Shown here: positions 816 through 54,091 of the stretch, one piece after another
Numbering within the stretch: the stretch's first letter is position 1
How the letters are laid out: every line of letters begins with the position of its first letter
From: Oscillatoria sp. FACHB-1406
GTDB lineage: Bacteria > Cyanobacteriota > Cyanobacteriia > Cyanobacteriales > Spirulinaceae
Length of the DNA stretch: 64,000 nt
Direction: 5' to 3'
NCBI RefSeq assembly: GCF_014698145.1
Contig: NZ_JACJSM010000019.1
Location: forward strand, 1 to 64,000
Position numbers and translations under genes: made by a program
The notes under the pieces: generated by a model
Seen by the model: the letters and a program-made list of their open reading frames with translations, nothing else
Told to the model about the DNA's origin: nothing
The model's database searches: none

Positions 816-3800
816 TTATCCAGTAATAGAGTGAGGTTGGAGAGGCAGATAGATGCAAAATTCGCTACCCTGACCTAATTGCGACTGAACTTCAAGTTTC
901 CCGCCATGTTTTTCTTCAATAATTTGTCGCGCGATCGCAAGTCCTAAACCCGTACCTTTCCCTACGTCTTTGGTCGTAAAGAGGTAGTCAAAAATCCGAG
1001 ATTTAAGATATTCGGGTAAACCCGTACCGTTGTCGGCGATCGAGATTTTTACTCCATTTCCTTCTACTTTTGTTTTAATGCTGATGCGATTCTGACAGGT
1101 TTTAATTTCGGCAAAGCTTCGTCCTAAATTAGACTCCTCTAACGCATCGATTGCATTAGCAATAATATTCATAAAGACCTGATTTAACTGTCCGGGGAAA
1201 CAGGGAACTAGCGGCAATTCACCATAGTTTCGCTCGACTTGAATTGCCGGACGCAAATCATTCGCTTTGAGTCGATATTTCAAGATCAGCAGGGTACTGT
1301 CAATTCCTTCGTGCAGGTTGGCACTAACTTTGGACTGGTTATCGGCGCGGGAGAAGGTGCGGAGGCTGGTACTGATGGATTTGATGCGCTCGGTAGCCCC
1401 GAGCATGGCATCGAGTAGTCTGGGCAGATCCTCCATTGAGAATTCTAGATCGATGTCTTCGGCGTGGTCTTGAATTTCTGAAACTGCATTGGGGTAATGT
1501 TGATGATATAGGGCTAAATGTTCGAGTAAATCCTTCACATAGTCTTTGCCATTGTTAATACTGCCATTGAGAAAGCCGATCGGATTGTTGATTTCGTGGG
1601 CGACTCCGGCGACTAAATTTCCCAAGGATGCCATTTTTTCGCTTTGGACAATTTGTAATTGGGATTGTTCCAATTGTTGGACATAGTTTTGGGCTTGTTG
1701 ATAAAGTCTGGCGTTTTCGAGAGAAATAGCGGCTTGGGTACACAGGAAATTCAGGATCGGGAGGCGATCGCGGGAAAATACGCCACGGGTAGAGCGATTT
1801 TCTAGGTAAACAATACCGCGTAAATTGCCTTGGTTGAGAATAGGCAAACACAATACGCTCTTAGGCTGATGGTGGCGCATATAATCGCTAATGACAGGCA
1901 GATCGGTGTCGAGATCGTCGATCGCAACTGTCGTCAAGGTATTCTTCACGTACTGAATCAGTTTGAAGGGAACGCTGGGATTATTCTCAAGCGGTGCAGA
2001 TTGCAGCGCTTTTTTCACGTACTGAATCATTTTGACGGGAACGGTAGGATTATCCTCGAGGGATGCAGATTGCAGCGTGACTTGCTCGAGATTGGCGATG
2101 ACTCGGACTTGCCATTGGTTATCTCGAGCCAACATTAAGGCACAGTAGTCAGCGCCAGAGTTTTCCAGCATTGTCTGGGTTAGGGTTTGCAGGAGTTCAT
2201 CCAGTTCGATCGTCCGGGCGAGGGTCTGAGAGACTTGCAATAGGGTCGCAAAATCTAGGGTTTGGTTGATGCTGGAGGAACTTTGACCGGAGGTAGAATA
2301 GGCGGAGTAGGTCGGGGCAGAGAGACTCACTAAGGTTTCTAAAACGGTGAGGGGTTGGTTTGCTTTTTGTAGGATGGGTTGCAGGAGTTGGGGATAGCGT
2401 TGTTCTAAGTGGGTAATTTTGGCTTTGGCTCCCCAGCGGGCATAATTATAATAGGCTTCCTGCATATAGCCGCTCGCGACTTTCTCTTTGCCCCAAGCGA
2501 GGTAAAATTTAGCAGCCAGTTCGTTGGCGAGGGCTTCTTCTTGGATGTAGCGGTTGGCTTTCGCTTCAGCAATGGCGCGATCGTATAAGTCGATCGCGTC
2601 TGCACGATTTCCTAAAATTTGCTGCTGTTCTGCCTGAATTAGATAGCACCGATGCGTGAAGTTCATGGGGGCATGGGTTTCCCAATGACGCAGGCGATCG
2701 AGATCGGTGGCAATCGCATTGTTGGAGTCAGCCGTAGGTTCGGGTCTGTTGGCGAGCAGCGTCAGTGCGTGGTAGAAGTAAAAGACCGCATAAAATGCAA
2801 TACCAATAATGCCCCCAATTGCCCCTTCAGCCGCTCGAGCGATTTCAAGGGCTTCTTGGGGCGACCCGAAATGGTAGGTCAAAATCAGTTTTTGGATATA
2901 GTATTTCCCAATGGAGTAAGTGTCTCCTGCTGCTTGATGTTGCGGCAATCGCAGGGTTTCATTGTAGACCGAACCAATCAGGTCTTTGGGCTGTGCCGTT
3001 TCGCCTAACCAATTCAGAACAGCTTGCTGTCCGATTTGATGAAAGTTGAGCGCAGTGGTTTGATTGAGTTGAGCGATCGCGTTGCCATAATATTGCATTT
3101 CGGTTTGCAATTGCACTAAGTCATTCCCAGCGGCATACGCCAGCAAACAATGGTTATAAGCACAGTAGGCAGCAAATTCTAAATCTCCAGTGTCCAGCCC
3201 CGCCTGATAGCCTTGACGCAGGGGTTCTAGCGTCTTTTGTAATGAACCCTGCCAGATGCGTGCAAAGGGATAAACGAGATTGAAAATTTTGGCTTTGAAG
3301 CGCGTCGCTTGCAATTTTTCCATTAAGACGATCGCAATATCCGCCGAACGATTGCCCGCAACAATTTCATTCTCAAAAGCACAAAGGATCAATCCGTAAG
3401 TCGCAAAAGCATACGATGTTTCCGCAGCCAGACCGAACGAGAGCGAAAGTTCGATTTGTTTCAAAACAATCAAAGGATAAAGGGCTGGAGCGCCAATATA
3501 GGCGGCTGAAGCCATGTTACTCAAAAGCGCGATCGCTGCTAATTTGCTCGGTTCTTCCATGAGTGGAAGTTCGGCGACATCTGCAATGGTTTCGAGTTGT
3601 TGTCGAATCCCTTTAAGGGCATTCGGTAGCATTTCCGAGGTGGGCTGTTCGGGTAAGATGACACCGAGGGTTTCGAGGGTATTGCGACCGACTTGAATCG
3701 CCTCAGAGAGTTGATTGCGAGCGATAAAAGATTGAATTTGAACTTCGATGGCTTTAATGCGATCGAGCGGATTCTTTACCTCTTGTAGAATGGTAGCGAC

Positions 3801-6341
3801 GTATCGATCCACTTGCTCGAATGCCCCCACCAAACAGGCAGAATTTGCTGCTTCAACGTAGAGTTCAAGGGCGAATTCCGGTTGCTGCCAAACTCGATCG
3901 ACAAGCTGCAAGGCGATTTCACAGTATTGAGCAGAGGCTGCATAAGCCGCTGAGAGTCGAGCTTTGCGAGCGGCATTCAAGTTAAGGCGAGCAATCCGAT
4001 CGCGCTCGAGGGCCGTATCAATTCCCTCGAGACCGAGATTGAATTGACTGATAATGGTAAAGATTTGTTCGTCTAGGGAGGTTGCTGGAGTTTGTGCGAG
4101 TAAAAGTCGCCCAATGTTTAGGTGTATGCCTTGTTTTTGAGAATCTGGAATGAGGGAATAGGCGGCTTGCTGGACGCGATCGTGCAAAAATCGATAGACG
4201 GGATTGATACTATCGCGAACATCAGCTATCTCTATCTCTTCGGCTTGAAAGAACTTATAGATCTGAGTGGTAGGTACAATCAAGCCTTCTTGTAACGCTT
4301 TCCACAGGGCTGTCGCAGTCGCGATTTGCGATTGCTCGGAAACGATCGCTAAAGTCGCTAGATCGAACTGATTGCCCACGCAAGCGGCTAACTTCAAAAC
4401 TTGTTGGGTTTCCTCTGGCAACTTCTGCAATTTCTGGGCCATAAATTCAACCACATCATCGAGAAGGGTGAGGGCATTGACTTGAGTCATGTCACATTGC
4501 CAATAGCCCCGCGCCGCTACGCGGATCCCTGCGGGATCGCGAGCAAAGGTAATGTATCCATCTTCATACAAGGCTTTAAGGAATTGCGTGGTGAAAAAGG
4601 GATTACCTTTAGTTTTGCGATCGACCAGTTGGGTCAAGGGTTGCGCCCGTTCTCGGCTGCAATTCAAGGTATCGGCAATCAGATGATTGGTATGTTCTGG
4701 GGTTAATGGAGTGAGGGTAATCGTATTAATGAGCGCGCCCGCTTTTTTCAGTTCCTCTAGGGTCAGCATCAATGGATGCGCGGGCGAGACTTCGTTATCC
4801 CGATAGGCCCCCAACATCAACAGATAGCCTTTACCCTTCATTAATAGCTCGATCAACTGAAGCGAAGCCAAATCTGCCCACTGCAAGTCATCGAGAAAAA
4901 TAACTAAGGGATGTTCGGCGGCGGTAAAGACCTGAATAAACTTCTGGAACAGTAAGTTAAAGCGATTCTGCGCCGCCGTTCCCGATAGTTCCGGTGCAGG
5001 GGGCTGCGAACCGATAATGCGTTCTAATTCTGGAATCACCTCCGTCAACACTTGACCGTTTTCGCCCACTGCTTCTAAAATCTGCGCTTTCCATTGGGCT
5101 AATTGGGTGTCGGACTCTGAAAGCAGTTGTCCCATTAAATCGCGTAACGCTCGGACAAATGCAGATAGAGGGATATTGCGATTCAACTGGTCGAATTTGC
5201 CTTTGATGAAGTAACCTTTTTGCCGCGTGATGGGTTTGTGGACTTCGTTGACTAGGGCGGTTTTACCAATCCCGGAAAAGCCCGCGACTAGCATCAGTTC
5301 GACTTCCCTGTGTTCCTCACGGCTAAGGGGACATACCACCGGACTAGAAACTCGCTCAAAGGCATCAAGCAGGATCTGCACTTCTGCTTCTCGACCGTAG
5401 AGCTTTTCGGGAATGTTGAAGCGATCGCATACGTCCCGCTGTCCTAATTGAAAATCTGCGATCGCTCCTGTTTCTCGCCACTGCATCAAACACTGTTGTA
5501 AATCGTGCTTGAGTCCCAAGGCACTTTGATAGCGATCTTCGGCATTTTTTGCCATTAGTTTAGCGACGAGCGCCGCTACCATAGGCGGTACGGAAGCGTT
5601 CGCCCGATCGAGAGGTACGGGCATTTTGGCAATATGACAATGCACCAGTTCCAGCGGATCTTCTGATTCAAACGGCAGATGTCCGCTCGAGAGTTGGTAC
5701 AACGTCACCCCCAAGCTATAAAAATCAGCGCGGTAATCAATAGCGCGATTCATGCGTCCGGTTTGTTCTGGAGACAGATAGGCTAGGGTTCCTTCTAAGA
5801 TATTTGGATTTTGGATCTCTTGGGTTTCCTTGGGCAGCAAGGAAGCAATACTGAAGTCGATCAGCTTGACTTGTTTTGATTCTGGATGAATCAGAATATT
5901 GGCCGGTTTGACATCTTTGTGGATGACGCGATTGGCGTGTAAGTTGTGGAGGATGTCTGTCAGTTGCAACGCGATCGCCAGTACGTCTGTCAGGTTTAAG
6001 GGATGGGTTTGATGATACTCGCGCAGCGAAACGTCGCCAAAGTCTTCCATCACCAGCGCATAGCCGTTGCGGTACGCTTCTAAACTGTAAGGACGAATGA
6101 TACCTGGAATGTTTAGGTTCTTAGCGATTGTATATTGATTGCGGAACTGTAACAAATCGTTGAAGGTCGGATAGTCTTGTTGCAGTAGTTTGACTGCGAC
6201 AGACTGCTCGTCAACTAAGCGAACACCTCGGTAGACAACAGTTTTACTGCCACAATACAGAGTTTCCAATAGACGATAGCCGGATAGAGCAACGGTGGCA
6301 CTCGCCGAGGCGTTCATCGGTACTTGCTTCATGGAATGCAA
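816..6341 (-). CDS. Hybrid Ser/Thr protein kinase / AAA ATPase / GAF / sensor histidine kinase
   Basis: A 1841-residue signalling protein. The N-terminal protein kinase domain (about 20-290) has the ATP lysine K51 (VAVK), catalytic D143 in HKDVKPAN (Lys replaces the usual Arg of HRD), DFS in place of DFG, and a GTLAYLSPEQTGR activation segment. A STAND-like ATPase follows, with Walker A lysine K360 (GFSGIGKT) and Walker B LVIFLDDLQWAD, then a long helical TPR-like region, a GAF domain, and a histidine kinase with H1582 (VAHEINNP), an N box (NIIANAIDAL) and G boxes (DNGTG, GKGTGLGLA). The order matches the HstK-type family of cyanobacteria; the substrate is unknown. There is no membrane segment, so it is probably cytoplasmic. 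It lies 109 bp downstream of a paralogue on the same strand. Relative to that paralogue it has an in-frame repeat insertion and a duplicated GAF segment. Confidence 0.93.
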   Translation of the reverse strand: MHSMKQVPMNASASATVALSGYRLLETLYCGSKTVVYRGVRLVDEQSVAVKLLQQDYPTFNDLLQFRNQYTIAKNLNIPGIIRPYSLEAYRNGYALVMEDFGDVSLREYHQTHPLNLTDVLAIALQLTDILHNLHANRVIHKDVKPANILIHPESKQVKLIDFSIASLLPKETQEIQNPNILEGTLAYLSPEQTGRMNRAIDYRADFYSLGVTLYQLSSGHLPFESEDPLELVHCHIAKMPVPLDRANASVPPMVAALVAKLMAKNAEDRYQSALGLKHDLQQCLMQWRETGAIADFQLGQRDVCDRFNIPEKLYGREAEVQILLDAFERVSSPVVCPLSREEHREVELMLVAGFSGIGKTALVNEVHKPITRQKGYFIKGKFDQLNRNIPLSAFVRALRDLMGQLLSESDTQLAQWKAQILEAVGENGQVLTEVIPELERIIGSQPPAPELSGTAAQNRFNLLFQKFIQVFTAAEHPLVIFLDDLQWADLASLQLIELLMKGKGYLLMLGAYRDNEVSPAHPLMLTLEELKKAGALINTITLTPLTPEHTNHLIADTLNCSRERAQPLTQLVDRKTKGNPFFTTQFLKALYEDGYITFARDPAGIRVAARGYWQCDMTQVNALTLLDDVVEFMAQKLQKLPEETQQVLKLAACVGNQFDLATLAIVSEQSQIATATALWKALQEGLIVPTTQIYKFFQAEEIEIADVRDSINPVYRFLHDRVQQAAYSLIPDSQKQGIHLNIGRLLLAQTPATSLDEQIFTIISQFNLGLEGIDTALERDRIARLNLNAARKARLSAAYAASAQYCEIALQLVDRVWQQPEFALELYVEAANSACLVGAFEQVDRYVATILQEVKNPLDRIKAIEVQIQSFIARNQLSEAIQVGRNTLETLGVILPEQPTSEMLPNALKGIRQQLETIADVAELPLMEEPSKLAAIALLSNMASAAYIGAPALYPLIVLKQIELSLSFGLAAETSYAFATYGLILCAFENEIVAGNRSADIAIVLMEKLQATRFKAKIFNLVYPFARIWQGSLQKTLEPLRQGYQAGLDTGDLEFAAYCAYNHCLLAYAAGNDLVQLQTEMQYYGNAIAQLNQTTALNFHQIGQQAVLNWLGETAQPKDLIGSVYNETLRLPQHQAAGDTYSIGKYYIQKLILTYHFGSPQEALEIARAAEGAIGGIIGIAFYAVFYFYHALTLLANRPEPTADSNNAIATDLDRLRHWETHAPMNFTHRCYLIQAEQQQILGNRADAIDLYDRAIAEAKANRYIQEEALANELAAKFYLAWGKEKVASGYMQEAYYNYARWGAKAKITHLEQRYPQLLQPILQKANQPLTVLETLVSLSAPTYSAYSTSGQSSSSINQTLDFATLLQVSQTLARTIELDELLQTLTQTMLENSGADYCALMLARDNQWQVRVIANLEQVTLQSASLEDNPTVPVKMIQYVKKALQSAPLENNPSVPFKLIQYVKNTLTTVAIDDLDTDLPVISDYMRHHQPKSVLCLPILNQGNLRGIVYLENRSTRGVFSRDRLPILNFLCTQAAISLENARLYQQAQNYVQQLEQSQLQIVQSEKMASLGNLVAGVAHEINNPIGFLNGSINNGKDYVKDLLEHLALYHQHYPNAVSEIQDHAEDIDLEFSMEDLPRLLDAMLGATERIKSISTSLRTFSRADNQSKVSANLHEGIDSTLLILKYRLKANDLRPAIQVERNYGELPLVPCFPGQLNQVFMNIIANAIDALEESNLGRSFAEIKTCQNRISIKTKVEGNGVKISIADNGTGLPEYLKSRIFDYLFTTKDVGKGTGLGLAIARQIIEEKHGGKLEVQSQLGQGSEFCIYLPLQPHSITG
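1945..2082 (-). repeat. Tandem 69-bp coding duplication in GAF domain
   Basis: Two adjacent 69-bp units (1945-2013 and 2014-2082) each begin TTCACGTACTGAATCA on the plus strand and share GATTGCAGCG near the end. They encode two similar 23-residue segments ending IQYVKKAL and IQYVKNTL. The paralogue at 6451-11877 has only one such segment (IHYVERTL). Confidence 0.8.
4508..4541. repeat. Small dispersed palindromic repeat, in-frame in kinase gene
   Basis: The stretch contains GCGCCGCTACGCGGA followed by CCCTGCGGGA. The reverse complement of the intergenic sequence at about 30647-30679 is nearly the same. In the coding frame it adds roughly ten residues (RDPAGIRVAA) between YITFA and GYWQCD that the neighbouring paralogue lacks. 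Very small mobile repeats of this kind are known in cyanobacteria. Confidence 0.75.
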
Positions 6342-6450: not shown

Positions 6451-9400
6451 CTAACGAACGGGCAAACTCAGAATAAATTCGGTTCCTTTGCCGACTTCCG
6501 ATGTGACATCGATCGCTCCGCCGTGTTTTTCAACAATAATTTGCCACGCGATCGCCAGTCCTAATCCCGTACCTTTTCCGACAGTTTTTGTCGTGAACAG
6601 ATGCTCGAAGATGCGATTTTTGAATTCTACCGCTATTCCGGGGCCGTTATCAGCGATTGTGATGTTTGCCCTTTCTCCTTCTAAGCGAGTCTCAATAGTA
6701 ATGCGATTGGGATGGGTTTGAATTTCTGTCAAACTACGGCCTGCATTAAACTCCTCCAAAGCATCGATCGCGTTAGCAATAATATTCATGAATACCTGGT
6801 TTAGCTGTCCCGGAAAACAAAAAATTTCTGGGACTTGACCGTAGTTCGTGACGATTTCAATTGCCGGACGAATGCTGTTAGCTTTTAAGCGATGGCGGAG
6901 AATCAATAAGGTACTATCAATTCCTTCGTGAATATTAAAAAGTTGCTTGGCTTCGCTGTCGGAACGGGAGAAGGTACGGAGGCTTTTACTGATCGATTTG
7001 ATACGGTTTCCACCGTCTTTCATCGCCTCGATCAACTTCGGAAAGTCCGAGCGCAGGTAATCAATATCAATTGCTTCTAATTCTTCTTCAATTTCTAAGC
7101 CCGGTTGAGGAAATGTTTTTTGATATAGGTCGATGATATCTAACAAGTTACTCATGTAATCTTGTGCAACATTAATATTTCCAATAATACAACCGACAGG
7201 ATTATTGATTTCGTGAGCAACTCCTGCTACCAAGTTTCCTAAAGCGGACATTTTTTCGGACTGTATCAGTTGCACTTGCATTCCTTGCAGTTCTGCTAGG
7301 GTTTTTTCCAACTGTTGAGATTTATCGTGCAGTTGTTGGGTGTAAGTTTGGGATTGTTGGTAGAGTGTCGCATTCTTTAGGGAAATTGCCGCTTGGGAAC
7401 ACAGAAATTTTAATAACTCAACTCGCTCGCTCGTAAATGCACCATTTGTAATGGCGTTTTCGAGATATAATACACCAATAAGTTTGCCTTGATTCAGAAT
7501 TGGCGTGCAAAATAAACTTTGAGGTTGATGTTTGATAAAATAGCGATCGCTCGCCATGCTCGGATAACTTTTAGAATCAGTTGTTACGGTTTCTAAAGTA
7601 CGTTCTACATAGTGAATTACACTGGTTGGTAAATGTTGGCACTCATCAACAGGTTTAGGGAAAAAAGATAAGATAGCACGATCTACATATTTGATTACTG
7701 CTTGTAACTCCCCATCGCGATCGAGGAATAAAGCCGCTTTATCTGCCCCAGAGTTATCCACGACCACTTGCATTAAAGTTGCCAGTAGTTTTTCGAGATG
7801 GATTTCGCTATATAGGGATTGAGCGACTTTCAATATCGTATTAATATCGAGTAAGTTAGAAATAGAAATAGAACCACTAGAGACAGTTTGATGTAAGGGA
7901 ACAAGGGTGTTAGATGAAGTGGTGAGGGGCGAGTTCTGCTCGCCAATCTGCATTCTTTGCAAAATTTGACTTAGCAGTTGGGGATAGCGAGTTACTAAGT
8001 CTTCTACCTTAGCTTTTGCTCCCCATTTGGCGTAGCAATAATAGGCTTCTTGCATATAGCCCGCTGCTACTTTTTCTTTGTCCCAATTGAGGTAAAATTT
8101 GGCGGCGAGTTCGTTGGCTAAAGCTTCTTCTTGAATGTAGCAGTTAGCTTTTGCTCCTTTGATGGCGCGATCGTACCAATCTCCAGCCTCATATAGCTTT
8201 CCTAAAACTCGGCATTTCTCCGCTTCCACTAAATCGTATTTATGTTGGTGATTCATGGGAGCGTGGTTTGCCCAATACTGCTGTAATGGCATTTGATTTT
8301 GGGTCGCGCGCTCTACAATTTCTAAGGTGCGATCGGAATCTCGATCGCATTTTCCCAGCGCAATCAAAGACTCGTAAAAATACAACGAGGCTTCATGGAT
8401 TAACCCCGCACCTGCCATAAAATAGCGTCTGACTTCTAGGGCTTGGTTTTGGGCGCGATCGAGTTCCCCAAACCAAAAGCAAAGTATCATTTTGTAGAGA
8501 TTAAAAGTATACAAACCCGATTCATCACGAGTAGACTGAAGTAAAGGGAGCAATTCTGTTTCTTGCAAAATTTCTCCTGTCAAACAGGTGGGATCCGGTG
8601 CTAAACCCAGTAAATTTGATGTCGCTTGCCAGCAGATACGAGCGTAAGTGGCTGTGGTCAATTGATTGAGTTGCGTCATCTCATGGCAGTAAGCGCGACT
8701 CTCTTTCTCCACAGTTTCTAGAGGCTGACCGCTCACAAAAGAATGTTGACAAAAACTGTGTCCGTTATGCCCAACGAACTCTAAGTTGCCAAATTCTAAA
8801 GCAGTTGCGTAACCTTCTTGTAGGAGAGAAAGCGTTTCTTTCAGGTGAGATTTGCGGTGCATCAAAAATACCGCTAACATTAACAATACTTCTGGTTTGC
8901 TGGCTTTAGCATCGAGTTTTGCAAGGATCTGAAGCGCTAAGGAACCATACTGTGCTGCGGTATCCACGGCTCTCAAAAAATTGCATAGAATGATGCCATA
9001 GTTTGTATAAATGTACGCCGAAACTGAGGTATTGCCGTACTGAATTAAAAACTTGACGGAGAAACAAACCAGTAGCGGATATAAGGGCGAACCCGAAAGA
9101 AAAGCGGGGGCCATAATGCTTTTAGCGATCTGGACAATACCAATGATTTTGCGATCGCTCATCTCGGGCAGGCGAACTAGATCGGCAATTTCGCGGTCTG
9201 CGATAAGTTCGTCTATCTCCTGAATAACCTGTTGAATATCTGCTGGTGTTGGTGATTCGGGAAAAGTTAGGCCAAGCTGTTCTAAAAGTCCTTGACCGAT
9301 GGTTACGGCTTCAGCCAGCTTATTTTGAGAGGCGCTCGCTTGAATTTTAATACAGTAGACATTGATTTGTTCGACTAAAGAACGCGATCGCGCGATAACC

Positions 9401-11877
9401 GTCTCAATGAACTGTTCCATCGATTCCAAGTCACCGCACAGCATTGCTAATTCAGCGGCTAACTCATGGAACTCTAAACTCATTGCATATTGCCGACCCC
9501 AAGCATTTTCTCCCAGCAGGGACAATCCTTTGTTAGCATATTCGCGACCTGCATTATAAGCCGTAGTGCTTCGAGCTTTACGGCAGGCAATCAAATTGAG
9601 TTGGGCTAATTCATCGCGTTCTTTTTGCTGAGTAATGAAAGCAGTTCCGTAGTTTAATTGATTGACTAACTCAAAAATGCGTTCTTCCCTAGCGGCAGGG
9701 GAAATTTGTTGCAGTAGGAGTTGCCCGATTTGGTAATGAGCGAGCGCCCGCTCGGCTTCCGGAACCAGGGAGTAAGCGGCTTGTTGGACGCGATCGTGTA
9801 AAAACCGATAAGGAACTGCTATATTTTGAGTTGTTAATGTCTCTTCTGTTTCAGTTAAGAAAAATTTGTAAGTCTCATTAATCGGAAGAATTAATCCAGA
9901 TTGCAAAGAACTCCACAATGCTCTAGCCGTTTCGGTTTCTGACTGCTCGCAAACAATTGCTAAAGTTTGAAGCTCGAATTGCGCCCCGATACAAGCTGCC
10001 AATTTTAAGACATCTTGCGTCTCAGCAGGCAGTTTTTGTAACTGAATCGACATGAATTCAACGATATCATCGGTCAAGATATGAAGTTTTACGCGAACGA
10101 GATCGCACTGCCAATAGCCCGCATTGATATCAAATTTTATAAAGTCATCATCATACAATGCTTTCAATAATTGGGTGGTAAAAAACGGGTTTCCTAAAGT
10201 TTTTTGATAAATGACTTGTGTTAAAGGCTTTGCAATTTCACAAGAGCATTTTAATGTTGCCGCAACCAATTGGTTAATGTGGGACAAAGCCAAGGGTAAT
10301 AGCGTTATCTTGTCAATCGTAACTCCGACTTTATTTAATTCATCTAATGTAAAAGTTAAGGGATGAACTGGCGAGACTTCATTATCTCGATATGCTCCTA
10401 AAATCAATAAATATTCTGTATCTTTCATCAATAATTCTAGCAGCTTCAACGATGCCCCATCTGCCCACTGCAAGTCATCGATAAAGATAACGAGGGGATG
10501 TTCTACACTCGTGAAGACTTTGACGAATTTTTGGAAGAATAAATTGAATCGATTCTGAGCAGCACTACCCGTTAATTCTGTGACTTCTGGTTGTTTTCCA
10601 ATAATCCGTTCTAATTCGGGAATAACTTCAACAATAACTCCCCCACTTTCTCCGACTGCGTTCAGGATTTTGGTTTTCCACTCCCACAGTTGTGCATCGG
10701 ATTCTGAAAGTAATTGCCGGATTAAATCGCGGAAGGCTTGCACGAACGCCGAAAAGGGAATGTTGCGGTTCAATTGGTCGAATTTTCCCTTAATAAAATA
10801 CCCTTTCTCTCGCACGATGGGCTTGTGGATTTCATTGATTGCTGCGGTTTTCCCAATCCCTGAATATCCCGCCACTAGCATCACTTCTGAGGCTCCTGCT
10901 GCTACGCGCTCGAACGCCTCCAACAATCTCTTGACTTCAGCTTCCCGTCCGTAAAGCTTTTCTGGGATGATGAAGCGCTCGCATACATCTCGCTTTCCTA
11001 ACTCAAACTCATTGATGCTTTGATTTTCTTGCCATTGCTTTTGGCATTGTTCGAGGTCGTATTTTAACCCCAAGGCGCTCTGATATCGGTCTTCAGCATT
11101 TTTGGCGAGTAGTTTCAAGACGATGTGCGACAATTGCGGTGGAATGCTGGGGTTAATCTCGTGGGGCGCAACGGGCGACTGGGCGATGTGAGCGTGGACG
11201 AGTTCTAGGGCTTCTGGGGATTGAAACGGCAGTTGCCCGCTTAGCAGTTGGTAAAGGGTGACTCCTAAACTGTAGAAGTCGCTGCGGTAGTCTACACCTC
11301 GATTCATCCGGCCGGTTTGTTCTGGGGAGATATAAGCCAGGGTTCCTTCCAAGACGTTGGGATTCTGGATTTGTTGGGTTTGTTTGGGCAGGTTTGATGA
11401 GAGGCTGAAGTCTATCAGTTGAATTTGCCCGGTTTCAGGCTTAATGAGGATGTTGGCGGGTTTGATATCTTTGTGAATGATGCGTTCGGCGTGCAGTTGC
11501 TGCACAATCTCAGCGATTTGTAGGGCGATGTCGAGTTGAGAGGATAAGCTGAGGGGCTGTTGGTGGATGTATTGCGCTAGGGAGATGCTTCCGGTATCTT
11601 CCATGACTAGGATATAGCCGTTTTGCCCGCTTTCTAAACTAAGGGGACGGATGATACCCGGGATGGGAAGATTTTTGGTCAGGGTGTATTGGTTGCGGAA
11701 TTGAAGCAGTTCCTGGAAACTGGGATAAGCGGCTCGCAGAATTTTGAGGATGACGCTTCGTTGGGTGGCGAGTTGTTCGGCGCGGTAGACGAGGGTTCTG
11801 GAACCGGCGTAAAGTTGCTCGATGATGCGATAGCCCGACAGGTTCGGTAGGGGAATTTCGGATATCGATGCAGTCAT
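6451..11877 (-). CDS. Hybrid Ser/Thr protein kinase / AAA ATPase / GAF / sensor histidine kinase (paralogue)
   Basis: An 1808-residue protein with the same architecture as its downstream neighbour. The kinase domain has VILK, HKDIKPAN and LIDFSLSS motifs. The ATPase has K343 in GYSGIGKT and a LVIFIDDLQWAD Walker B. A helical repeat region and a GAF domain follow, then a short coiled coil (about 1510-1540) leads into H1555 of VAHEINNPVG, with an N box (NIIANAIDAL) and DNGPGI and GKGTGLGLA motifs. Both members keep Lys rather than Arg before the catalytic Asp and Ser after DF, as seen in this cyanobacterial family. The two genes are head-to-tail with a 109-bp gap, which suggests a local duplication followed by divergence of the helical sensor region. 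Co-transcription is possible. No response regulator lies beside them, so the phospho-acceptor is unknown. Confidence 0.93.
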   Translation of the reverse strand: MTASISEIPLPNLSGYRIIEQLYAGSRTLVYRAEQLATQRSVILKILRAAYPSFQELLQFRNQYTLTKNLPIPGIIRPLSLESGQNGYILVMEDTGSISLAQYIHQQPLSLSSQLDIALQIAEIVQQLHAERIIHKDIKPANILIKPETGQIQLIDFSLSSNLPKQTQQIQNPNVLEGTLAYISPEQTGRMNRGVDYRSDFYSLGVTLYQLLSGQLPFQSPEALELVHAHIAQSPVAPHEINPSIPPQLSHIVLKLLAKNAEDRYQSALGLKYDLEQCQKQWQENQSINEFELGKRDVCERFIIPEKLYGREAEVKRLLEAFERVAAGASEVMLVAGYSGIGKTAAINEIHKPIVREKGYFIKGKFDQLNRNIPFSAFVQAFRDLIRQLLSESDAQLWEWKTKILNAVGESGGVIVEVIPELERIIGKQPEVTELTGSAAQNRFNLFFQKFVKVFTSVEHPLVIFIDDLQWADGASLKLLELLMKDTEYLLILGAYRDNEVSPVHPLTFTLDELNKVGVTIDKITLLPLALSHINQLVAATLKCSCEIAKPLTQVIYQKTLGNPFFTTQLLKALYDDDFIKFDINAGYWQCDLVRVKLHILTDDIVEFMSIQLQKLPAETQDVLKLAACIGAQFELQTLAIVCEQSETETARALWSSLQSGLILPINETYKFFLTETEETLTTQNIAVPYRFLHDRVQQAAYSLVPEAERALAHYQIGQLLLQQISPAAREERIFELVNQLNYGTAFITQQKERDELAQLNLIACRKARSTTAYNAGREYANKGLSLLGENAWGRQYAMSLEFHELAAELAMLCGDLESMEQFIETVIARSRSLVEQINVYCIKIQASASQNKLAEAVTIGQGLLEQLGLTFPESPTPADIQQVIQEIDELIADREIADLVRLPEMSDRKIIGIVQIAKSIMAPAFLSGSPLYPLLVCFSVKFLIQYGNTSVSAYIYTNYGIILCNFLRAVDTAAQYGSLALQILAKLDAKASKPEVLLMLAVFLMHRKSHLKETLSLLQEGYATALEFGNLEFVGHNGHSFCQHSFVSGQPLETVEKESRAYCHEMTQLNQLTTATYARICWQATSNLLGLAPDPTCLTGEILQETELLPLLQSTRDESGLYTFNLYKMILCFWFGELDRAQNQALEVRRYFMAGAGLIHEASLYFYESLIALGKCDRDSDRTLEIVERATQNQMPLQQYWANHAPMNHQHKYDLVEAEKCRVLGKLYEAGDWYDRAIKGAKANCYIQEEALANELAAKFYLNWDKEKVAAGYMQEAYYCYAKWGAKAKVEDLVTRYPQLLSQILQRMQIGEQNSPLTTSSNTLVPLHQTVSSGSISISNLLDINTILKVAQSLYSEIHLEKLLATLMQVVVDNSGADKAALFLDRDGELQAVIKYVDRAILSFFPKPVDECQHLPTSVIHYVERTLETVTTDSKSYPSMASDRYFIKHQPQSLFCTPILNQGKLIGVLYLENAITNGAFTSERVELLKFLCSQAAISLKNATLYQQSQTYTQQLHDKSQQLEKTLAELQGMQVQLIQSEKMSALGNLVAGVAHEINNPVGCIIGNINVAQDYMSNLLDIIDLYQKTFPQPGLEIEEELEAIDIDYLRSDFPKLIEAMKDGGNRIKSISKSLRTFSRSDSEAKQLFNIHEGIDSTLLILRHRLKANSIRPAIEIVTNYGQVPEIFCFPGQLNQVFMNIIANAIDALEEFNAGRSLTEIQTHPNRITIETRLEGERANITIADNGPGIAVEFKNRIFEHLFTTKTVGKGTGLGLAIAWQIIVEKHGGAIDVTSEVGKGTEFILSLPVR

Positions 11878-29984: not shown

Positions 29985-30563
29985 TTAAAAAGGAACAACA
30001 CCGAGCTTATTGCGAACTTCGCCCAGCGGCGTTGTCCAGTCTTCTTCAATGTTCCATTCAACCAAACGATCGCTCAATCGACTGTAATGAATTGCCTTCA
30101 GGATATCGCCCAAACTGCATCGTCTAGTTAAAAGTCCGAGCAGTACGAGAACAGCGCAGGAAGGACGAAATAATTGCGCGCGGGTGAATGCTTGGAGGAT
30201 AAGTTCGTCTTCAGCAGAGGGAGATAATCCCGTTAAAACGTGCCAAACATCGTGGCTGCGCTGAATCCAATCCCCGGAGTTGAGCGGTTCAAAGCCATGT
30301 TCGTCAAGAAAGCGGGCAACTTCGCGTCCTAGGGTTCCCTGGGGTAAATGACGCAACTGGTTTAAATCGAGTTCTAAAGGTTGTTCGGGCTTGATTTGGG
30401 GGTTAATTGTTTGGGCAAGTTGTAAGATAAATTTCAGACCTTGAGTAGCCACAGATCGATCCTCCTCGGGTAGATAAAGTAGAGATGCTCCCCGATGAGA
30501 AGGATTCAAGAGTTTACGAGAGCGAACGCGAGATAATTGCGCTTGCATACTGTAAAACCACAA
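29985..30563 (-). CDS. Coq4-family protein
   Basis: A 192-residue protein with the Coq4 metal motif HDxxH-x11-E: H104, D105, H108 and E120 (SHDVWHVL ... SAEDE). Coq4 in eukaryotes acts in ubiquinone synthesis, where it supports decarboxylation and hydroxylation of the ring and organises the enzyme complex. Cyanobacteria make plastoquinone rather than ubiquinone, so the role here is uncertain; a quinone-related or lipid-binding function is a reasonable guess. It may start at the first ATG (30563) or at an ATG five codons later. Single gene, leftward. Confidence 0.8.
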   Translation of the reverse strand: MWFYSMQAQLSRVRSRKLLNPSHRGASLLYLPEEDRSVATQGLKFILQLAQTINPQIKPEQPLELDLNQLRHLPQGTLGREVARFLDEHGFEPLNSGDWIQRSHDVWHVLTGLSPSAEDELILQAFTRAQLFRPSCAVLVLLGLLTRRCSLGDILKAIHYSRLSDRLVEWNIEEDWTTPLGEVRNKLGVVPF

Positions 30564-30646
30564 CAGTGAAGATTGAAATTCAGGAAAAAATTTGTGAAGT
30601 TTAGGGAGAATATTTTAAGTTTTCCGATTCGGTATCTTGCCTGTCG

Positions 30647-30679
30647 CGCTCCCGCAGAGGTTCCGCGTAGCGGCGCGCC
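30647..30679. repeat. Small dispersed palindromic repeat (second copy)
   Basis: Contains CCCGCAGAGG and TTCCGCGTAGCGGCGC. Its reverse complement matches the repeat found in frame at 4508-4541 in the kinase gene. Here it sits in the spacer between the Coq4-like and LuxR-type genes. Confidence 0.7.
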
Positions 30680-30790
30680 AAAACCCGTTCGCTCGCCGCA
30701 AGTACCGGAACGCCGTCTCGATTGACCTCACGTAAAGTGTCGGTTTTTGTAACAAACGAGATGCTCCCACTTCCTTAGAAAAATGGCGAT

Positions 30791-31375
30791 TTAGTCCTCA
30801 GAATCATGATTTTTCTTTCCGAAGAAGGCTTTTTGCTTAACTCTGATATTTTTCAGATGTTTTTTGACCGTATTTTCTGAAATATACAGTTTTGCACCGA
30901 TTTCTTTATAGGAGTAGTGGGCGCATCGCAGCGACCAGACTTCAGTTTCTCGTGGCGTGAGACCGTACTTTTCGCTGTCGTCAATTTCAGGCTTTTGTAG
31001 GGGGTGGCAGCTATCCTCGAGGGTGATGGAAACATAGGCGGGTTCGTTGGCTTCCCACTGTACCCACCGTCCGCGCAGGCGCAATGTATTGGAGGGCGAA
31101 GCGTTTACTTCAGACTCGATGGCTAAAATGCGATCGCCCCAAAGCTGATGTCCTTCGATTAAAGCGTGACAGATCTGTAAAATCGCTTGGGGAATGCCGT
31201 AGGGATGAGCGGGATTAGGGGGGAGTTGCTGGCACAACGTCCGAGCTTTTTTGTTAGCATGGATGAGTTCGCCGCGATCGCTGAAAATGGCGATACCATC
31301 AACGAGACCTTCGAGGATGGCTTGGAGAAAGATCGGTCGATCCATTGGGATAGAGATGGGTACGCTGACAAACAC
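30791..31375 (-). CDS. PAS-LuxR transcriptional regulator
   Basis: 194 residues. The N-terminal half (ILEGLVDGIAIFSDRGELIHANKKAR) has the form of a PAS sensor. The C-terminal 60 residues form a LuxR/GerE DNA-binding domain: LTPRETEVWSLRCAHYSYKEIGAKLYISENTVKKHLKNI. There is no receiver domain, so control is probably through the PAS domain rather than phosphorylation. The GTG at 31375 opens the frame; an ATG ten codons later (31345) is the alternative start. Target genes are unknown. A SD-like GGAG lies upstream. Confidence 0.87.
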   Translation of the reverse strand: MFVSVPISIPMDRPIFLQAILEGLVDGIAIFSDRGELIHANKKARTLCQQLPPNPAHPYGIPQAILQICHALIEGHQLWGDRILAIESEVNASPSNTLRLRGRWVQWEANEPAYVSITLEDSCHPLQKPEIDDSEKYGLTPRETEVWSLRCAHYSYKEIGAKLYISENTVKKHLKNIRVKQKAFFGKKNHDSED

Positions 31376-51048: not shown

Positions 51049-51153
51049 GACAATGGACAATTGATAACGTTTGGAGATATTTCGTAGGGTGGGCAGCGCC
51101 CACCAGCCTTAAGTCAGTGCCATTCGACAATGGACAATTGATAACGTTTGGAG
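51049..51153. repeat. 28-bp direct repeats flanking a GGTGGGC palindrome
   Basis: Two identical 28-bp direct repeats (51049-51076 and 51126-51153, starting GACAATGGACAATTG and ending GTTTGGAG) flank 49 bp containing GGTGGGC-AGC-GCCCACC. This looks like the insertion of the common GTAGGGTGGGC repeat into another repeat with duplication. Nothing indicates CRISPR. Confidence 0.65.
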
Positions 51154-52666: not shown

Positions 52667-54091
52667 TTAATTGATATCTTTCCAAAGATCGTCAAACTCA
52701 TCAGCAGAATCAGTTTTCTTCTTCTTATCCTGCGACGATTCAGCCCACGCAAAATCATCATCTGAGCCTAAACCGCCTAATTCAAGGCTGTCATCCGAAG
52801 CCGCAAATAGATCGTCCTCTAAGTCGTCATCTGCTGCCCCAAAAATATCTTCTACAGCTTCTTCATCTGCTCCACCAAATAGATCGTCTTCATCCTCTGC
52901 GCCTCCCCACATATCGGCTTCTAAAGAATTATTAGTAGTATTATCTGTTTCATCTAAACTGCCGAAAAGATCGTCGGCTAACTCTTCTTCTGCGGATTCT
53001 GTAGCAAATAAATCATCTTCAGCTTCGGCTTCTAACGATGCACCGGCAAACAAATCTTCTTCAGAATCTTCGGCTGCGCCCGTACCAAATAAATCATCTT
53101 CAGCTTCTAACGATGCACCGGCAAACAAATCTTCTTCAGAATCTTCGGCTGCGCCCGTACCAAATAAATCATCTTCGGCTTCGGTTTCTAACGATGCACC
53201 GGCAAACAAATCTTCTTCAGAATCTTCGGCTGCGCCCGTACCAAATAAATCATCTTCGGCTTCGGCTTCTAACGATGCACCGGCAAACAAATCTTCTTCA
53301 GAATCTTCGGCTGCACCCGTGCCAAATAAATCATCTTCGGCTTCGGTTGCCGGTTCGCTAGCGAATAAATCGTCTTCGGCTTCTTCAGCAATAGCCTCAG
53401 TTGCAAATAAATCATCTTCGGCTTTGGTTGCCGGTTCGCTAGCGAATAAATCGTCTTCGGCTTCTTCAGCAATAGCCTCAGTTGCAAATAAATCGTCTTC
53501 GGTGGCGGTTGCCGGTTCGCCAGCAAATAAATCGTCTTCGGCTTCTTCAGCAATAGCCTCAGTTGCAAATAAATCGTCTTCGGTGGCGGTTGCCGGTTCG
53601 CTTTCTGAATTTACCGTAAAGACTTCTGTCGTTGTTACTTTAGTCGTGACTTCCTCTGTCACTTTGGCAACAGGGATATTCGGGGGAGTCTCGACGGAGG
53701 CAGTTTCTGTTGCCGCCATCGTAGCTGGAGTGGCCACTGTTGGCATTGTCGCTAGCGATGGATTGCTGGGCGCGCTGACTGCATTGGCAGCAGGAGAAAC
53801 GGGCGTTGAGGAAGTTCCCGGTTCTGAGGGACAAAATTCGATATGAATTCTGACCTTTCCGCTTTGCCAACTTGTTGCCCCGAAGCGCAGCACTTCACAG
53901 GAAATACCATCTTCACCGAACCATTCTTCCGTGTCGCCCGTCAAACCTCCGATGCCATGCTCGAGCATGGCAGCTTTCAATGATTCTGAGAGTTCGCCGA
54001 CTCTAAACGTGCCGTGTCCGATTAAGAATTTCATCGATTCGGGTACGGATAGCACTTCCCCAGTTAAGAGTGGTTCAAATTGATTATCCAC
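52667..54091 (-). CDS. KGK-domain protein with tandem EDDLF repeats
   Basis: 474 residues. The N-terminal 95 residues match the KGK domain found in cyanobacteria (VLSVPESMKFLIGHGTFRVGEL, EEWFGEDGISCEVLRFGATSWQSGKVRIHIEF). Then a Ser/Thr/Ala/Pro-rich linker, and from about 165 to 370 an array of 27-residue units, each with two DLF motifs 14 residues apart: three units of the type EDDLFATEAIAEEAEDDLFA and four of the type EDDLFGTGAAEDSEEDLFAG (one shortened by two residues). A degenerate acidic tail follows, with DLF/DIF at intervals, ending EFDDLWKDIN. The region is very acidic and probably disordered, possibly for binding many partners. The function is unknown. Confidence 0.8.
   Translation of the reverse strand: MDNQFEPLLTGEVLSVPESMKFLIGHGTFRVGELSESLKAAMLEHGIGGLTGDTEEWFGEDGISCEVLRFGATSWQSGKVRIHIEFCPSEPGTSSTPVSPAANAVSAPSNPSLATMPTVATPATMAATETASVETPPNIPVAKVTEEVTTKVTTTEVFTVNSESEPATATEDDLFATEAIAEEAEDDLFAGEPATATEDDLFATEAIAEEAEDDLFASEPATKAEDDLFATEAIAEEAEDDLFASEPATEAEDDLFGTGAAEDSEEDLFAGASLEAEAEDDLFGTGAAEDSEEDLFAGASLETEAEDDLFGTGAAEDSEEDLFAGASLEAEDDLFGTGAAEDSEEDLFAGASLEAEAEDDLFATESAEEELADDLFGSLDETDNTTNNSLEADMWGGAEDEDDLFGGADEEAVEDIFGAADDDLEDDLFAASDDSLELGGLGSDDDFAWAESSQDKKKKTDSADEFDDLWKDIN
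53008..53580 (-). repeat. Tandem 81-bp coding repeats
   Basis: Seven units of 81 bp (one of 75 bp) in the KGK-domain gene. Four share AACGATGCACCGGCAAAC and three share CTTCAGCAATAGCCTCAG on the plus strand. Units within each group are almost identical, which points to recent expansion. A long open frame on the opposite strand across this repeat is a composition artefact. Confidence 0.85.

Follow-up and report, generated by a model that had tools for sequence, protein, structure and literature searches.

A giant kinase gene with an in-frame insert

The window, by which we mean the whole stretch of 64,000 nt that was analyzed, is the opening 64 kb of a contig of 108 kb from Oscillatoria sp. 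FACHB-1406, which the relatives of its kinase also mark as a cyanobacterium. At 816-6341 on the reverse strand it carries the gene for a giant kinase of 1841 aa with Ser/Thr kinase, STAND-like ATPase, and histidine kinase parts, which were assigned from NCBIfam matches (every listed row fell under the curated cutoff). Within this gene lies a 24-nt element, here called SDR5-type, at 4512-4535 on the same strand. Because one G is shared, the boundary is ambiguous by one base, and the insert could equally be placed at 4511-4534. The kinase reading frame is intact across the insert, the coding strand reading Asp-[PAGIRVAA]-Arg, or D-[PAGIRVAA]-R. About ten extra residues had been proposed for this place; the insertion itself stands, and its net gain is eight residues (24 nt).

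The adjoining paralogous kinase at 6451-11877 (reverse strand) lacks the insert in a sequence comparison, as the earlier note had stated, and reads FDINAGYWQCD where the kinase reads FARDPAGIRVAARGYWQCD. A tblastn search provided 118 kinase segments, two of which are the kinase itself; some loci contributed two segments. Exactly eight residues are absent from 103 of the 116 non-self segments, the neighboring paralogue included, and the remaining 13 have other lengths and other residues at the insert site. The closest homologue among those compared is 73% identical over a 160-residue region. The same residues in orthologues of distant genera, in the absence of repeat-like DNA, had been named as evidence that would speak against a repeat; none of the 116 non-self segments carries the inserted residues.

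The element is a dispersed repeat, best read as two small hairpins

The 15-mer GCGCCGCTACGCGGA occurs at 4511-4525 (forward strand) and 30662-30676 (reverse strand), its sole matches in the window within two mismatches (two versus 0.19 expected; two or more were reached in 2 of 100 shuffles). The second site belongs to a copy of 25 nt at 30651-30675 on the reverse strand (profile match at 30643-30680, E = 1.9e-7), which lies between the ORFs 29985-30563 and 30791-31375. The reverse-orientation copy claimed earlier near 30.65 kb is thus present on the reverse strand, but it is diverged and intergenic.

In the host genome (5.47 Mb in 42 contigs), the genome-wide search that had been suggested found the 15-mer at 17 places within one mismatch, versus one place for the backwards control. 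Fifteen of the 17 have a longer element in common; L007 and L013 do not. A profile built from 15 copies, flanks included, gave at least 45 matches at E < 0.005, at least 35 at E ≤ 1e-4, and at least 80 at E ≤ 10, with 150 of 4529 candidates scored and E values that are to be taken as rough. Eighty matches were listed and the best 50 classified, 45 of which are 37 nt long.

The conserved part of the element consists of GCG, YGCCGCTACGCGGATCCCTGCGGG, and ATCGC. Its middle folds into two hairpins side by side, CCGC-TAC-GCGG and ATCCC-TGC-GGGAT, each with a three-letter loop that varies; the unit is better read as these two small neighbors than as one long palindrome. The first loop is TAC in 23 of 45 copies, TTC in 6, AAA in 5, GAA in 4, and other letters in 7. 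Alignment of 43 copies, from which L042 (which repeats L041 exactly) and L097 (which ranks last among the 50) are absent, showed pairing in 93.8% of the hairpin cells and changes on both sides in only three cells, a number equalled by 12 of 500 shuffles, so that covariation is weak. The lone kinase copy with its flanks folds no better than shuffles (z = −0.48 as DNA and −0.46 as RNA). Folding of a single copy was dropped as support for the element, since shuffles fold equally well.

An identical 24-mer is present in six copies at different places in the genome. This recurrence, together with the dispersal of the element and the empty sites of the homologues, suggests that the element is mobile, and it supports the earlier proposal of a small mobile repeat that has become protein coding. 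L041 (on contig C33) and L042 (on C41) have an identical element and identical near flanks, the C33 copy lying at the contig end; the pair is probably part of a larger repeat.

HIP1 is the target site

Excision of the 24 nt joins GCG to ATCGC and produces the HIP1 octamer GCGATCGC, which places the insertion point at GCG^ATCGC. Among the 33 coding copies described below, 31 had a 37-nt match and could be collapsed for the target and frame counts. Exact HIP1 was restored in 25 of these 31. The joined site was one letter off in the kinase copy (L027), L032, L083, and L084 and two letters off in L093 and L097. In the kinase, the split target site spans 4509-4540; on the forward strand, CCG precedes the insert and ATCGC follows it, and the joined site CCGATCGC matches HIP1 in seven of eight letters. 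GCG flanks 42 and ATCGC flanks 38 of the 45 37-nt matches, counts that lean towards HIP1 because the profile was trained with flanks included.

Removal of 24 nt leaves one HIP1 site or near form, with no target site duplication beyond the one-base ambiguity. HIP1 octamers number 8119 in the host genome, versus 154 for the control, and therefore fewer than 1 in 100 of the sites are seen filled. The insertion point was derived from these data before comparison with PMC4390886, which places the insertion of SDR5 exactly between the third and fourth nucleotides of HIP1; since the element enters HIP1 at that point, it is called SDR5-type. The HIP1 target, the 24-nt unit, and the SDR5 precedent are additions to what the earlier note contained.

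Copies in genes, reading frames, and stops

When coding and intergenic copies were listed, as had also been suggested, 33 of the best 50 were found in ORFs of at least 150 aa (mechanical ORF calls). The background was provided by the HIP1 sites of this one window, 67 of 91 of which lie in 32 long ORFs, hand-picked from 81 mechanical calls. The proportions within ORFs do not differ clearly (p = 0.34, and p = 0.39 for the 23 of 35 copies at E ≤ 1e-4), and insertion into genes is therefore not visibly rare.

The Asp-Arg frame holds 23 of the 31 coding copies, compared with 21 of the 67 HIP1 sites of the window background (p = 1.5e-4); for the Ala-Ile-Ala frame, the counts are 6 of 31 and 36 of 67 (p = 0.0019). 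When the coding copies are restricted to the 23 at E ≤ 1e-4, the respective values are p = 5e-4 and p = 0.009. The common version of the element is free of stops in five of six frames; in one Ala-Ile-Ala orientation, the common TAC loop gives rise to a stop. Three copies, L025, L028, and L093, occupy this stop-making frame, and their loops (TTC, TTC, and AAA) are stop free. The frame skew and the loop variants are consistent with removal of harmful insertions, in a count to which stop-bearing ORFs could not contribute as hosts. The peptide of the kinase insert is also present in unrelated proteins.

Empty sites and removal scores in other host proteins

The element-bearing IS982 transposase copy (L026) measures 531 nt, versus 507 nt in seven of eight full-span homologue matches and 504 nt in one; two plasmid matches have 507 nt each. 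Homologues from elsewhere were used because the host genome contains a single full match, and no empty copy was found there. Along the aligned segments, 13 of 21 homologues are 24 nt shorter than L026, four are 23 nt shorter, two are 27 nt shorter, and one is 19 nt shorter, while one (L209) is 18 nt longer, all of these being net gaps over the whole aligned segment. The IS982 lengths support the 24-nt unit independently of the flank-trained profile. L209 (about 1700-1780), an IS982 homologue from another genus, holds an insert of another kind next to the FGD motif, at the site that the element occupies in L026, and its segment is about 42 nt longer than the empty IS982 form.

Removal of the eight residues, the only deletion that was scored, raised the leading family score in three of five proteins: from 111.7 to 125 for the CrtI family (L021), from 200.1 to 215.1 for IS982, and from 113.4 to 118.3 for Pkinase. 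The score of the GDPD host (L018) dropped from 110.6 to 109.0, and in L023 the insertion site lies outside the ATP-grasp match. In L021, the scores for NAD_binding_8 and Amino_oxidase rose, and those for the weaker families DAO (30.2 to 24.7) and FAD_binding_2 (20.9 to 20.0) fell. The element of L021 stands just before the VGGR of a relative of CrtI-type desaturases and that of L026 right after the FGD of the IS982 transposase. These interrupted places are conserved motifs of importance, and both proteins may be impaired by the element.

The kinase insert is modeled in a loop with unrelated inserts elsewhere

Kinase residues 470 to 760 (4062-4934, reverse strand) were modeled from 38 sequences, that of the window kinase plus 37 taken from 91 eligible segments. 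The model has a mean pLDDT of 80.2 and a pTM of 0.66. The insert is placed between segment strands 128-131 and 144-147, in a low-confidence strand-strand loop whose pLDDT is below 50 at segment residues 138 to 141. The best fold matches were Apaf-1 chains (E = 4.7e-5 to 6e-4, entries 3sfz to 1z6t), followed by a STAND protein (1.5e-3) and, more weakly, by MarR-type winged-helix regulators. The model and these matches suggest that the loop is probably the beta-wing of a STAND winged helix.

Unrelated inserts, several of them C-run/G-run palindromes, occupy this kinase loop in other cyanobacteria. One such palindrome, CCCCCCTTNNNAAGGGGGG, is found in the loop exactly in L107 and L167 and in similar form in L110. 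It was counted 141 times in the genome of L107, 87 times for L103, 15 times for L146, and 42 times for L106 (N. punctiforme NIES-2108), against 3 times in the host; the control gave 0 in all five genomes. These palindromes resemble the element in being a palindromic repeat in the same kinase loop, but their sequence is unrelated to it.

Distribution among genomes

A survey of 291 genomes of the order, with stricter filters and at most 23 candidates scored per genome, revealed the element at E ≤ 1e-4 in at least 28, the host included, and its distribution is patchy. Copy-rich genomes are G000 and G036 (at least 23 copies each), G055 (at least 21), and G006 (at least 20), with further copies in G008 (at least 15), G028 (at least 13), and G061 (at least 10). 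Within the family, 12 genomes besides the host were covered: G006 and G008 are rich in copies and G009 has at least one; in the remaining nine, none was found at E ≤ 1e-4 among the candidates scored. Sixteen other cyanobacterial genomes were searched with the element model, up to 150 candidates being scored in each, and none gave a match at E ≤ 0.01; eight of them are Nostoc, Calothrix, or Dulcicalothrix, and N. punctiforme NIES-2108 is included. The same model matches the host genome, though in a separate search.

Y1_Tnp genes gave four matches in the host genome and occur in 12 of 13 family genomes irrespective of element copy number, in a count that takes RAYTs together with other Y1 genes. 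A Y1 transposase was rejected as the mover, its presence being unlinked to copy number in these family genomes.

Origin and meaning of the kinase insert

The observed 24-nt unit, its dispersal, the HIP1 target, the empty homologue site, and the loop position in the model are brought together by a reading that we hold with high confidence: the kinase insert is a copy of an SDR5-type, HIP1-inserting 24-nt repeat and most likely lengthens the beta-wing, a change that is tolerated and brings little if any new function. A two-hairpin repeat of this type would enter the HIP1 octamer at GCG^ATCGC with no visible target duplication. As its length of 24 nt is divisible by three and the common version has a stop in just one of six frames, entry into a coding HIP1 site would add eight residues. 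The copies would have moved recently, driven by something that acts either on HIP1 or on a single strand in folded form, and selection would clear those whose peptide or stop harms the host protein. In the kinase, the result would be a longer wing of the STAND winged helix that the protein tolerates.

It might instead be supposed that the peptide D-PAGIRVAA-R helps the kinase and that the element was retained as a new functional loop: the insert does not break the frame, and regulation in STAND proteins can take place at the winged-helix wing. However, the presence of the same peptide in unrelated proteins, the pLDDT below 50 at segment residues 138 to 141, and the quite different inserts at this loop in other lineages fit tolerance better, and we regard a functional loop as very unlikely. 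Nor do the counts agree with a HIP1-rich, GC-rich sequence that evolved in place, without a mobile element. The genome is rich in HIP1 (8119 copies), and the single kinase copy folds no better than shuffles, but the 24-mer recurs six times without differences at different places, the homologues lack that length, and in 263 of the 291 genomes of the order, with up to 23 candidates scored in each under stricter filters, nothing reached E ≤ 1e-4; evolution in place is already contradicted and deserves next to no credence.

REPs are extragenic repeats tied to RAYT genes. A repeat of the REP/REPIN type, mobilized by a REP-associated tyrosine (Y1/HUH) transposase, would account for a small hairpin repeat in a genome with four Y1_Tnp matches. 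Yet Y1_Tnp is present in 12 of the 13 family genomes, whether copy rich or not; 33 of the 50 copies lie in ORFs, whereas REPs are extragenic by name; and HIP1 targeting is not known as a REP feature. An origin of this kind is most improbable.

Beyond the tolerated SDR5-type insertion in the kinase, HIP1-targeted 24-nt elements may be a recurrent, peptide-filtered source of eight-residue insertions for which exposed loops are recurrent landing places, a generalization that we offer tentatively, being nearly evenly divided and leaning slightly against it. The peptide filter would favor the Asp-Arg frame and would leave the stop-making frame to stop-free loop variants alone. Exposed loops would include the wing of the kinase winged helix, hit by unrelated palindromic families in different cyanobacteria. 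The repeat is seen carried inside many different genes of one genome, with target, length, frame, and peptide all readable, and it offers a countable system for how bacterial proteins absorb mobile DNA. Any genome rich in HIP1 allows the frame skew and the loop variants to be examined for selection. Annotators should be aware that such eight-residue inserts in cyanobacterial proteins, as in the CrtI-type and IS982 examples, derive from a repeat.

Comparison with known repeats

This kind of repeat is already known from other cyanobacteria; what is seen here is a clean target, the unit length, and the coding effect. SDR families measure 21 to 27 nt and have hairpins conserved with compensatory changes. 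The length of the element is similar (24 nt from the protein gap, the IS982 lengths, and the rejoining of HIP1), and the insertion point in HIP1 is that of SDR5, with the kinase copy one letter off HIP1. SDR5 of Nostoc punctiforme and relatives is said to have been described by Elhai et al. in 2008, in Genome Res 18:1484. The sequence family of the element appears to differ from SDR5, because the element model gave no match at E ≤ 0.01 among the candidates scored in the 16 genomes, N. punctiforme NIES-2108 among them; the term SDR5-type refers to insertion point and length, the features compared, and not to the published consensus letters.

Rickettsia palindromic elements (RPE) are described in PMC2229807 as lying in frame in proteins, with 19 reading frames concerned and lengths of 105 to 146 bp. 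Like the element, they are palindromic in-frame repeats; unlike it, they measure 105 to 146 bp rather than 24 nt, belong to a different phylum, and are not known to have a HIP1 target. PMC3116915 presents REP/REPIN sequences as extragenic and tied to RAYT genes. They share with the element the form of short dispersed hairpins and differ from it in being extragenic, whereas ORFs of 150 aa or more contain most of the best copies of the element (33 of 50). Target site duplication, a feature of MITEs, is lacking in the element. A literature search found no paper on in-frame SDR5-like insertions in kinases, which is not a claim of absence from print.

Other repeats at HIP1 sites and in the window

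Loci scanned by pattern for the Nostoc SDR5 showed no excess at a spacing of 24 nt (45, versus 15 to 54 for spacings of 20 to 30 nt). Other hairpin inserts inside HIP1 were noticed in L144 and L135, as leads only. Among Nostoc loci, L144 (about 2655-2690, 24 nt), L150, and L099 have other hairpin inserts in HIP1 or HIP1-like sites, and these are possibly classical SDR5.

The kinase gene has a further repeat at 1942-2077, a 67-nt direct repeat with a spacing of 69 nt and 87% identity, which resembles a tandem duplication of 23 residues that kept the frame. Elsewhere in the window, a 28-nt sequence is exactly repeated within 51049-51153, at 51049 and 51126, and the ORF at 52667-54091 (reverse strand) contains a tandem array at 52986-53602 with a spacing of mostly 81 nt.
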